DNA from: Gautieria morchelliformis | Lineage: Eukaryota; Basidiomycota; Agaricomycetes; Gomphales; Gomphaceae | Direction of reading: 5' to 3' | DNA: 64,000 nucleotides | Assembly: GCA_015179125.1 (NCBI GenBank) | Contig: WHVA01000322.1 | Location: 1-64,000, forward strand | Part shown: one piece after another, positions 57,745 to 64,000 of the stretch | Layout of the letters: the number at the start of each line of letters is the position of its first letter | Numbering within the stretch: position 1 is the stretch's first letter | Notes under the pieces: generated by a model | Database searches by the model: none | Seen by the model: only the letters and a program-made list of their open reading frames with translations | What the model was told of the DNA's origin: nothing | Position numbers and translations under genes: made by a program

Positions 57745-60700
57745 ATGGCTGGCGATCATAAATGTCCAGTCTGCGCGTCGACTTTTACACGCCCACAACA
57801 TGTCGCGCGGCACATGCGTTCTCGTCAGTATTTCCCGGGTCTTTCAGAAACCGTTTAATGACCTTTTTTGTTTTGTTTTGTTTTTCCGGTTGTTGTACTC
57901 ACCTGTGCTTTTGCTTGCTTCGGGATTTCGTGATTTGCTTCATGGTTGTAGATACCGGTGATCGCCCTTACAAATGTACGCATTGTGGGGATCAGTTTGC
58001 GAGGAGGTGTGTTCGATCATCAATACACTCTGCATCCCCCCATCCTCACCCCCTCCCTTCCTTGCTCTGTCAATCCATAATTCTGACATGCTACCCCCAG
58101 CGACCTCCTCTCCCGCCACGTCAACAAATGCCACGCCGCCGCAAAGCCACCCACCACGACACAGCCCGCGCGTCGCAGGGGCCACGCTGCCCAGCCCGGA
58201 ATCAACGTCGGGGGCGTTCGTGGCCCACCACCCATGTTGAATACGCCAACGAGAGGGCAGGAGGCAGGAGGGAGTTTGGGGAGTTTAGGTGCGGGATTGC
58301 CGGCGCTGTCGAGGGGAATATGCGACGCATGTGTGGGATCTAGGACGCCGACGCAGTGTGATGCCGGACTCCCATGTGGTGCGTGGCGTTCATTCCGTCT
58401 TATTTGCGTTCCTGGTTCCTGATTTTCATTCTTTTGCTCTCATTTCTTTCCGCTGCTTTACCCTTTCTCCCTCGCGGTCGCCCGACATGGACACGTGCCC
58501 TATCTCCACCCTTAGGCAAATGCCTCCAGCGCAACTCCAAATGCACGTACACCAAGGTCTCTGATGCACGTCGCGCCTCCACTTCCTTCATACCTTCCTC
58601 AATCTCTTCCATACCTCCGTCGATCGGCTCGATGCCGGTGGCGCCCTCGTCTACATCACTTGTCCGTTCGCACCCACACCCACACACCCAGCAGCACCAT
58701 GCCCAACATCCACATCCACATCCCCAACATCCCGCACATCAGCACACCCACGAATTGTTTGTGCCACCCACAGTGCCTTCTATGGCCCCCCGCCCCACGG
58801 TAGGTGCTCCTGCTGGCTCCGGGGGAGTTGGTCGTGGTGGTGTGGGCGTAGGCGTCGGGGTATCTGCAAGTGCTGACACGAGCAGCGAGGCTGGGCTGTT
58901 TCCTGAGCCCCTTCATTTCACTGTACCGCTGTATCCACAGGCGTTGGATGTGAGAAGTAATGGATCGGTAGGTCTAACCTTGCAAAATTCAGTTTGATTT
59001 ATTTTTGGTTTTTATTGCCAATATTATCCGCTTTGCACTTCTTTCACTCGATCGTTCACTTTTGTTTTTCGGCGCCTTACCTCACTATGCTGTTATTCGC
59101 TGACTTGCACTTTACAGCCCCAGCACCCTCACGCAGCCTTCACCAAGCACGACCATGACCATGCACACTTACATCAGATCCCACATGCGTCACACCTTGC
59201 CCCATACCCGGACCCTCCAAATAAGGGTTTCGATGCATTTCTCGCTGGGGAGGGGCCAGATCCGGGAGCCTTCGGCACCTCGGGGTTCTTGTATGATGGG
59301 GTCATGGGGGGACAACAGCAGCAGCAGGGGCATCACGGTCAGCTGAGGGAGCAGCAGCAGCAGCACGAGCAACAGCAACAACACGAGCAGCAGCACAACA
59401 ATGTCCACACACACGCTCCAGATTTCGCGTTCGATACCAGCCGAATGTTCCAGTTTGGTGCGTCACCCCAAGGCCAACTACAGCAGCGCGCGGGGGAGTA
59501 TACGTTTTCGGGCCTCGCGCACACGCTCCAGTTCGCGGAGGGATCACAGCAGAATCATAGTACGCTGCATGCCTCACAGCACGGACAACACCACAATCCG
59601 AGCCTCAGCGCAGGAACGGCGGCCCTCGCCCCGCCCGAAGGTGTCTCTAACGCGTTTGGGCTCATGAGTCTTGATGACCCGGTTGTTGCTGCAGAGATGA
59701 ACAAGAGCGCTTCGTTCTTTGCCCCAGGGGCCTTGCCAGGCGGTGCAGGTGCAGGGGCTGAGGGTGTTGCGTTTGAGTTTGGGATGGGTGGAGTGAGTGG
59801 GGGGTTAAGCATGGGGGTGGGCGGAGTGGGGATTGGAGAGGGGGCGACGCCTGGAAAGGATGCGAATATTGCTGAGTTGAGGGATTTCTGGAAGGCATTC
59901 ATGCGGACGCCGGGGGAGAAGACGCCAGGATCGTCGGGGATGGTTAATGCAGGGGATGGGGAGGGTAGCGGCGCCCAAGGCGAAACTCAAGAAGGCACGC
60001 AGGGTCAAGGGAGCGGGCATGATTCTCGCCCCATCGCTGTGCGGCGGTCGCTCCCAAAGACGGCGAGTCTTCCGGACATAAAGACGCCGCCCATGACCCA
60101 GGAGGTTGGCATGGGGGGAGCAGGAGGGGTCTATGGTGTTGAGCCGGGGCATGGGGCGTACCACGGGTTTGGTGGGCAAGCACTCGCCAATGGGCGGGAG
60201 GACCGGGAGGACCTGCGGTCGTATGAGATAGCTGTGATGGCGCGACAGGCGCCAACAAAGTTGACGCTGGCGCCAAGGAAGAGGGCGACGTTCCCGCGGG
60301 AGGGGGGAGGTGCGGGCGCTGCGGCTGGGGCCCAGCAATCTCAGGGAACGCAGCAGTCTCAAACCCAGCAGCAGCCCTTCAACACACATATTTCGTCATC
60401 GTCTCCCTCGTCGTCACCAGCTCTTGGCGCCGCAGTGACGGCCGAAAGCCCCGCCAACTCGTCGCCCTCGGCATCCGTTGCTTCTGTTGCATCGGGTGCA
60501 TCGGGGGGATCAAGCAGGGAGGGCGCGGAGGGGGACAGCGGCAACTCAGCATGGTCACATTCCACCTTCGGAGGTGCAGAGAGGAGCGGGCCCACGGGGA
60601 GTGCAAATGCAAGTGTGAGTGGTGGTTCAGCGACGCACTCCCCGCACCCTGCGAATGCGGTGCGTGCTCAAACCCATCCCACCCCCCAGGCGCATGGCCA

Positions 60701-61235: not shown

Positions 61236-61989
61236 CTGTTGTTCGATAGTGCGTAGGTGCTGTGTCGTGTCGTCTGGCGGGTTCCTGTGCTTGATGACGA
61301 TGGTCCCCCGACGGCCGATACCAGACCACACATTCTAACATAAATGCTCAATTCCGACTTACTGATTTTTCTCGATTGCTTTTCAACCTCCAAATCTGGA
61401 TTGCTCGTGACCTGCTATATACTTCTAGCGGACATTGCGCAATCCTCACCCCCCCCTACAAGCGTACATGGACCCGACATCTAATCCTCTGTCTCAAGCT
61501 ATTGTTCAAACTTACCCACCCGCACAATTGTATAACATGCACGAAACACGCGCCAGCAGTCGTCGTTACCACCTAAAACAAACTCATACCACGGATGCTC
61601 GCAGATAACCGTAGTTTTAGTACCCGTTACTGGCATGCCATGATCTCACCACGTCTTACTACTGATATCAATTCTGATTTTCTATCAAATTTGTTCTGCA
61701 CCTGACATTTGCAATTGCCCTGGCTGGATTTGGAGCTCGACTCTTCATTTGTATATTACACTATAGTAGCGAGAAGAATTTACGTTGCTTTGTACCTTGT
61801 GTGGGTTGATTCCCAGCGAAGCGTGTTCAGTCCTGAACCGGTGTAGTGGCGTTCGACAAACTGTCTTGGCCGATAACGGAATACAAGAACGAGTGCCCAA
61901 GACCACCACTAATGCGAACACCCCTATAATCAATTGATCTGTTGAGCAAAGAACTAAAACCTCGAGCCACAACCTACTTATTTGTCATT
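61236..61989. other. Convergent intergenic region
   Basis: Holds the 3' ends of the transcription factor (+) and the small gene (-). No supported frame. Confidence 0.5.
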
Positions 61990-62746
61990 TCAGTAAGGCT
62001 TCTTCAGGGCTTGTGCAGCCTTGGTCGCTGCTTGAAGGTCTCGGATTCTCTGGAGTTCGTCGGGCGTTACTTTTTTGTTATCTTTGTCTGGCTGTACTTT
62101 CGACTTTGAGATCGCAACAGGGTTGGTGTGGATATGTCCCCACAGCATAAGATTAGCAGCACTGTGGGGAGTACCTCAGCGACAGGTCGACAAGGTTGAT
62201 TCGGTTCAGAGGAAATGGGGGCAATGGTGAGTGTATCTCCGTCTGAGCCATGGGTAACGACGGTTGGGTGTTTCCTCACAATAAATTTCTGTCCTCACAT
62301 TTAAATTACTGTACTTAGTTGGGGCATGTGGAATACTTACCTTAGATTTGGTAGGTTTAGCCTTATCCGAGGGTTGGTCAGGCAATATGTCAGGTTAACC
62401 GGCGTAGAGTACTTACGTTAGATGTGTCAGGTTCAGCCTTATCCGAGGCCTTTGGATCAGGCAACATGGACGTAGTTAGAGCATGTGGAATACTTACCCT
62501 AGCATTGGTAGGTTCAGCCTTATCCGAGGTTTTTGGTCAGGAAATGTCCCTACTTAAGGAAGTAGAGTATTACCTTAGATGTGTCAGGTTCAGTCTTATT
62601 CAAGGTCTTTGGATCAGGCGACATGTCTACAAACGAAGTTTTATAAATGGTTTGCTAAGGAGGGAAGGAGTTTACATACGATGCGCTCTTGCGTGGACGA
62701 TATCGCCATCGCGGACAACCCTAGAGCCTGAGGATGAGTTGGACAT
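61990..62746 (-). CDS. Small hydrophilic protein, 115 aa, with a duplicated exon
   Basis: Four exons on the minus strand: 62680-62746, 62574-62626, 62175-62288 and 61990-62103. They sum to 116 codons including the stop TGA. The start reads MSNSSSGSRVVRDGDIV, exon 2 gives SPDPKTLNKTEPDTSK, exon 3 starts KFIVRKHPTVV and the end is a basic helix (KVTPDELQRIRDLQ, AATKAAQALKKPY). Splice sites are GT-AG and frames agree across all joints. The 285-nt intron between exons 2 and 3 contains three more decayed copies of the exon 2 unit. I do not recognise a family; no membrane segment or signal peptide is seen. Confidence 0.65.
62341..62626 (-). repeat. Four tandem copies of an exon-intron unit
   Basis: Copies at 62574-62626 (the exon used), 62498-62549, 62417-62469 and 62341-62392, spaced 76-81 bp. 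Each encodes a variant of DPKxSDKAEPxxSK followed by a GT donor (GTAAGT in three). The second copy has a frame break leading to a stop, and copies three and four lack an AG acceptor at the equivalent place. Confidence 0.75.
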
Positions 62747-63396
62747 AAGCGCTTAGGAGACTGGGGGTGTCTAAAGCAACTGTAGAGAAAGAGATGCAGC
62801 GTTGTTTAAGTATATAAATAATCGAAGTCAGGGCGTATATTTGGCAGCGGGACTCCGCAATTTTCTATTAGGATTCATTTAGCAGTGAGAGACGTTTCCC
62901 ACAGATATGGAAGGAACAATTGACCTGTCAAGGAAGCCGCGTCAAAACAAGCAAGGGAACGATTGTCAGCCGACTAGTATTGTGTAATACGGGAGTGAGC
63001 ACCGGGCGTGGTCGTTCTTCCCCTGCCTCATGTCCTGAGGTACCGTCCCTGGCATTCTTTTCCTTGTCAAATCGTCAGTCCACACTTGCTTCCGCGCATG
63101 GGCTAGGACCTGGTACTCACGTACTAGTCCGCTTGCTGTCTTACAGAACCCCGGAGGTCTCGTATTGAAGTTGCTCCGTACCCGCCTATCATCATCAGGC
63201 TCTCACCCTTCCGGACATGGCATTATCCAGCTAGTACACCAGGTTGAGAAGCTGAACATCAATAGACAATGAATGAATTACCATCACAGAACGCCCCCAT
63301 CCACTAACACTTAGACGCCTTATGTAATGTTGGACTCAGTTAAGTAAACAGCAGAAGCGGGATAGTTACTTGCTAGCCACCACAAACCATACTGTA
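62747..63396. other. Divergent intergenic region
   Basis: Lies between the small gene (-) and the F-box gene (+), so it should hold both promoters. A frame at 62920-63168 shows no known motif. Confidence 0.45.
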
Positions 63397-64000
63397 ATGT
63401 ATCTGCCCTTTGAGGTCTGGAGCCATGTTTTCTGTCAGTTACCCAATAATTCTCAAACACAACTTATGCGCGTTTGCCAATTCTGGCGGGACATAGCCAA
63501 AGCCACACCCCAACTGTGGACATGCCTCCACATTGGCTATCCACATCAATTTGCTGATCCTACCGGTCTCTGGCAATGGCTCGAAAGATCGGGCGAGTGT
63601 CCACTCGATGTGATCCTCAACATTCCACTCGGAGTCACAGATATGCGGCCGACGCTGGTGCTGTTGCGTGGCCATGTCAGACGATTCCACGTTCTTAACA
63701 TCGAAGTACCCACGCCTGGTATCGCGGACACAATCCTCTCATCTATTGCACTCTCTGAAGGAAAATGCAATGGCAATACCGCTCCACTTCTAGAGGAGTT
63801 GTGCATTACCATTGACGAGATGTCAGACACGCCCGCAGATGAGAACCAGGACTATTTTGAACACGCCTTTTATCCTTCCCCACGGCTTCGGAGACTAACT
63901 ACTTCTCCACTGAGGATGCCCGCTCCATCATCTAAATTGCTTTCCACCGTCTCCTCCCTCATGATCGTCTCTGGGCCTAACGACCAAGTTACGCCTATCC
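63397..64000 (+). CDS. F-box protein, N-terminal part, cut by the window
   Basis: From ATG 63397 the frame is open to the window end (201 codons). LPFEVWSHVFCQLPNN and LMRVCQFWRDIAKATPQLW form an F-box like those in the many agaricomycete F-box/leucine-rich proteins, followed by bl ocks with spaced Leu (LWQWLERSGECPLDVIL, LLRGHVRRFHVL). F-box proteins recruit substrates to SCF ubiquitin ligases through Skp1. The frame is also open for some codons upstream of the ATG, so an earlier start or exon is possible. Confidence 0.75.
   Translation, partial: MYLPFEVWSHVFCQLPNNSQTQLMRVCQFWRDIAKATPQLWTCLHIGYPHQFADPTGLWQWLERSGECPLDVILNIPLGVTDMRPTLVLLRGHVRRFHVLNIEVPTPGIADTILSSIALSEGKCNGNTAPLLEELCITIDEMSDTPADENQDYFEHAFYPSPRLRRLTTSPLRMPAPSSKLLSTVSSLMIVSGPNDQVTPI

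Follow-up and report, generated by a model that had tools for sequence, protein, structure and literature searches.

A tandem array of a short second exon, with candidate 21-nt micro-exons, in a small gene of Gautieria morchelliformis

The window of our analysis, i.e. the first 64,000 nucleotides of contig WHVA01000322.1 of Gautieria morchelliformis, contains a small gene on the minus strand, from 62746 to about 61990, in which exon 2 and the start of intron 2 occur as four consecutive copies, spaced by 76, 81 and 76 bp. The features of this gene and of its neighbour are listed in Table 1; they have been compared with those of relatives from the same genome (122 Mb, 1113 contigs), which are designated by their contig and, where needed, by their position. 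The nearest copy, C981, carries three units (Tandem Repeats Finder, TRF: 2.9 copies of 80 bp, score 250).

Table 1. Features of the small gene and of the neighbouring F-box gene in the window.
Feature	Position	Strand	Description
Exon 1	62680..62746	-	MSNSSSGSRVVRDGDIVHARAH plus 1 nt; kept in C981 and C326:174976
Intron 1	62627..62679	-	53 nt, GTATGT...TTTGTAG; same position and size in C981 (54) and C326 (54)
Exon 2 (unit 1)	62574..62626	-	53 nt, (H)MSPDPKTLNKTEPDTSK; in frame in the window and C981; single exon 2 in two C326 paralogs
Donor of unit 1	62568..62573	-	GTAATA in the window; GTAAGT in C981
Tandem array	62324..62625	-	four 76-81-bp units, types A-B-A'-B'; from TRF, direct repeats, unit distances and shuffles
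Candidate micro-exon, unit 2	62498..62518	-	21 nt, AEPTNAR; putative intron before it 62519-62573 (55 nt); part of an in-frame chain, splicing predicted
Candidate micro-exon, unit 3	62417..62437	-	21 nt, AEPDTSN; putative intron before it 62438-62497 (60 nt); splicing predicted
Candidate micro-exon, unit 4	62341..62361	-	21 nt, AKPTKSK; putative intron before it 62362-62416 (55 nt); splicing predicted
Last intron	62289..62340	-	52 nt, from the unit 4 donor to GAGGACAG; C981 equivalent also 52 nt
Last exon, own frame	62067..62288	-	up to the frameshift-induced stop at 62067-62069
Last exon, remainder past the 1-base deletion	61990..62168	-	family frame to ...QAATKAA, then unlike C981; TGA at 61990-61992
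Divergent F-box gene	63397..64000	+	runs off the window; Pfam F-box-like, 3e-08; 15 places of at least 87% identity, itself included

The F-box gene belongs to a large family (22 places of more than 400 bases) and stands head to head with the small gene in the window, at C326:173-175 kb and at C637:29-30 kb, the arrangement at C981 being a different one; the homology between the window and C981 spans about 61.9-63.1 kb, and the location of the F-box gene on the other side at C981 bears on the question of whether the two copies are alleles. On the other flank of the small gene, positions 58802-59901 have copies of 93-95% identity on four other contigs (C166, C715, C156 and C827), and the region at 59.9-61.3 kb has no match of that kind on other contigs. 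The search of positions 61500-64000 for structured RNA gave no Rfam match at gathering score.

Five further members of the small-gene family have been found by means of the last exon: C981, two copies on C326, and one each on C637 and C517, the last with an E value of 0.23 in the first search and of 4e-7 and 2.5e-25 in later ones; a match on C498 (E 0.79) has been dropped from the family. The member C326:174976, which looks intact from its sequence, has three exons, the single exon 2 being 29 nt long and the introns 54 and 55 nt; it also has, at the C terminus, a charged tail rich in R, K and E (fetched stretch L007, 1750-1941) that is absent from C981. The second C326 member (C326:27646) has the same exon 2, and its exon 1 appears to be split by several hundred inserted bases (fetched stretch L009, 1900-2680); at C637, tblastn found no exon 1 within 1.5 kb upstream, and the C517 member has stops inside the last exon. 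Neither the C981 protein nor the C326 last exon contains a known Pfam domain.

The first, sequence-only reading of the window had proposed, as a check, to compare the number of units at this locus in related species; within the genome, there are four units in the window, three in C981 and none in what was fetched around the other four members: within 3.2 kb at C326 (two), C637 and C517, TRF found no repeat of 70-90 bp and blastn found no match to the array. A DNA search of the genome with the array as query, very common words being skipped, matched the window and C981 alone. These relatives provide the state before the array: four distant paralogs are array-free in the stretches fetched, and in two of these exon 2 is single and 29 nt long.

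The array is far above chance, with a TRF score of 427, whereas 200 dinucleotide shuffles of positions 61990-62746 never exceeded 44, and the minus-strand gene with four units at distances of 76-81 bp, each with a GT donor, has been borne out. The proposed source, exon 2, agrees with the two array-free C326 paralogs, in each of which a single exon 2 occupies the corresponding position, and its amplification by tandem duplication is supported by the seven units of the two gene copies together with these paralogs; homologous exon copies, aligned in all seven units, lie next to each other in one gene, as in tandem exon duplication. The donor is GTAAGT in six of the seven units, the exception being unit 1 of the window: the splice signals claimed for this unit do include a GT, but in the poorest donor of the window. 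The original acceptor is TTTGTAG in unit 1, a TAG with a shifted frame in unit 2, and is absent as a TAG from units 3 and 4 of the window and from unit 3 of C981. The lengths from the CCTGA anchor to the donor are 45, 44, 45 and 42 in units 1-4 of the window, and an internal ATAAG is identical in all seven units of the two copies.

In order to have a scale for introns, we have used 13 introns inferred in conserved genes (actin, tubulin, elongation-factor-like), with sizes of 47-67 nt: nine of 52-67 nt, one of 47 nt (the only new one among eight from a looser run) and three of 47, 49 and 58 nt, which were read by eye and then measured. The script behind the first ten gave a small bonus to CAG/TAG and GTAAGT, and three of the first nine are from near-identical actin paralogs, leaving about 11 independent introns. 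Five introns in the paralogs of the small-gene family measure 54-62 nt; for scale only, the average intron of another basidiomycete, Rhizoctonia solani AG1-IB, is 78 bp (PMC4686921). Within the window, intron lengths derived from consensus motifs alone gave no useful signal over a reversed control.

In each of the five extra units of the window and C981, GGATAAG is retained, followed by 21 nt (seven codons, in frame) and then by GTAAGT. The 21-nt segment has no indel in any of the seven units, while the 19 columns to its left are gapped in four of them; in the unit alignment, conservation over 14 columns is highest at ATAAG followed by GCTRAACCT, the donor being the sole other separate block among the top six such windows, but this block was chosen after the alignment had been viewed, and the absence of indels over 21 columns is weak evidence. 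The location of an in-frame 21-nt segment between the best conserved blocks in all five extra units suggests micro-exons with introns of 52-60 nt, and the splicing of the extra units as 21-nt in-frame micro-exons is the model that we favour, our confidence in it being evenly balanced. The claim that only the first unit has both a good acceptor and a clean frame holds for the original TAG, but overlooks this internal ATAAG, which is in frame in all five extra units.

Under the micro-exon model, the copies would use the AG that is located 30 nt further in (GGATAAG), with the upstream CCTGAY as the putative branch point, CTRAY being a usual form of such sites; each unit would comprise an intron of 55-60 nt and a phase-0 micro-exon of 21 nt, adding a heptapeptide A-E/K-P-x-x-x-x. 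When all of the 21-nt segments are joined in one chain, the frame is kept both in the window (introns of 53, 55, 60, 55 and 52 nt) and in C981 (54, 55, 59 and 52 nt), although the sizes of the array introns are dictated by the unit length and are not independent support for micro-exons. The insert would be AEPTNAR-AEPDTSN-AKPTKSK in the window and AEPAKSE-AKPTKPK in C981, where the predicted gene is open from start to stop, with 156 codons and a stop; unit 3 of the window has an alternative 33-nt form, starting at 62449, that is likewise in frame.

A precedent for the AAG acceptor is found in intron 2 of both C326 paralogs, which must, on our reading, end in AAG in order to hold the frame. On the other side, AAG is a poor acceptor, uncommon in fungi, and the 13 conserved-gene introns all end in CAG or TAG; unit 3 has a nearer AAAG, which in C981 could not follow unit 1 or 2 without loss of the frame; and the first micro-exon of the window is preceded by the weak GTAATA donor. 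In unit 2, the window and C981 have 6 differences over the 21 positions of the candidate micro-exon, compared to 2 of 58 in the intronic parts (Fisher P = 0.004); this gives no sign of peptide conservation, though the change is similar to that of the fast-changing last exon (46/308).

More tentatively than the micro-exons themselves, we propose that the array is a minisatellite in which one repeat corresponds to a whole short intron with a 7-codon exon, one intron and one heptapeptide being gained or lost per exchange without harm to the frame; unequal exchange between units would then alter the number of introns and the number of peptide repeats together.

For the window copy alone, a further reading, which partly coincides with the other models, takes the gene as a pseudogene and the array as a neutral minisatellite; we consider this possible, but less than probable. 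The window lacks one base of C981 near 62169, in a run of C, resulting in the stop at 62067-62069, and gaps of 2 and 1 bases also occur towards the end of its last exon; the G of the first donor has also been lost, the comparison with C981 in the family frame gives dN 0.146 and dS 0.116 (ratio about 1.26), with no sign of constraint, and other members are broken too (C326:27646 and C517). Against this reading, the deletion may, given the C run, be an assembly error instead of a mutation; C981 is open throughout, its upstream region is 92% identical to that of the window over 191 aligned bases, gaps aside, and past the deletion the window holds the family frame, with dN 0.31 below dS 0.82 against C326. 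Divergence from C981 is 56/428 in coding and 26/344 in noncoding positions (P = 0.014, the array being left out), but the spacer between units 1 and 2 (11/32) runs contrary, so this contrast is not relied on. With its weak first donor and its last-exon frameshift, the window copy is probably failing.

The proposed exon end at 62175 is unlikely: C981 has uninterrupted coding sequence at this site, in an open frame of 104 aa, and the window differs from it there by the 1-base deletion. A putative intron running from 62174 to CTCAAAG could lead the window past this deletion without loss of the frame; since GTACTC is a poor donor, a frameshift or an assembly error in the C run is likelier. At the acceptor of the last exon, an additional repeat, of two 20-bp copies, is located at 62273-62312.

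The original interpretation of units 2-4, as decayed exon copies within one long intron 2 with unit 1 as the only exon 2, is possible, but in our view rather unlikely. The missing TAG of units 3 and 4 and the broken frame of unit 2 are in its favour, as are the chain from exon 1 through unit 1 to the last exon, in frame in the window and in C981, and the good CAG acceptor, GAGGACAG; however, it would demand introns of 285 nt in the window and 208 nt in C981, compared to the 47-67 nt of the conserved genes, the supposedly dead units retain GTAAGT while unit 1 of the window has GTAATA, and conservation within the units is highest in the ATAAG and GTAAGT blocks.

Alternative splicing, with units or inner AGs used in varying combinations to give zero to three heptapeptides or an 11-residue form from unit 3, is less probable still. 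It draws on the in-frame chains, 14 in total in the window and five in C981 (introns of at least 40 nt; donors GTAAGT, GTAATA or GTATGT), the additional ones among which also count against the micro-exon model, but such an enumeration concerns possibility, not use, and exon skipping makes up 1% of coding events in the basidiomycete Schizophyllum commune (PMC5034255). The copies do not each have a usable acceptor and donor with equal phase, as mutually exclusive exons do, and mutually exclusive use of whole units is unlikely, with about 25 nt between a donor and the next TAG and no TAG in units 3 and 4; consecutive splicing of whole units would leave introns of only that length.

Concerning the origin of the units, comparison with the array-free paralogs shows that a gene with a short exon 2 gained a tandem array of this exon and about 25 nt of the next intron. 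In the two C326 paralogs, the 5' part of intron 2 is similar to the spacer of C981 unit 1 (score reached in 11/2000 and 2/2000 shuffles). A TAG is present both at the end of intron 1 and, as CTAG, inside intron 2; with the seam placed there, every copy would have been born with a TAG, located too close to the previous donor for a normal intron here. Differences amount to 8/79 positions between the two units 2 and 8/76 between window unit 4 and C981 unit 3; they amount to 15/77 between window units 1 and 3, 14/78 between window units 2 and 4, and 16/77 between the two units 1. C981 unit 3 is a mosaic, its left part having 2/21 differences to window unit 3 and 3/19 to window unit 4, and its right part being similar to window unit 4 (1/23, then 4/34); together with the unit distances, this fits an order in which a single unit first gave rise to A-B and this pair was then doubled to A-B-A'-B', as in the window, with A' and B' being fused in C981, while unit gain in the window lineage may be the alternative.

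Tandemly repeated exons were reportedly the subject of a paper of 1988, which is found among the references of a study on Schistosoma micro-exon genes. Both tandem exon duplication and intron gain by tandem duplication are well described (PMC9013439, PMC2891723, PMC4974935, PMC3629103), and the array represents a variant of them. As in the animal cases, an exon is copied in tandem with flanking intron, and extra copies can be unannotated (PMC9013439); unlike those, the copies here would be 21 nt if spliced at the inner AG, whole-exon copies are about 25 nt apart, and the host is probably fungal. As in fission yeast (PMC3629103) and potato, duplication supplies splice signals; in potato, the duplication crosses an intron-exon boundary and part of the copied exon turns into intron, whereas here the duplication is repeated to three or four units, all of which carry a donor and may contribute a micro-exon. 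The micro-exon genes of Schistosoma (PMC10526429) have short exons, mostly multiples of three, and are only a functional analogy to the candidate micro-exons, with introns of up to 5 kb compared to about 55 nt here. Among the top-ranked, open-licence texts, we found no fungal case of repeated units of intron and micro-exon, which does not prove absence.

The copies with three and four units and the array-free paralogs constitute a before-and-after series of exon and intron birth by tandem duplication in one genome. If the micro-exons are spliced, the array would show how part of a duplicated exon becomes intron, and why the number of units can vary without a frameshift; if the minisatellite reading is true, the number of protein repeats could evolve quickly.
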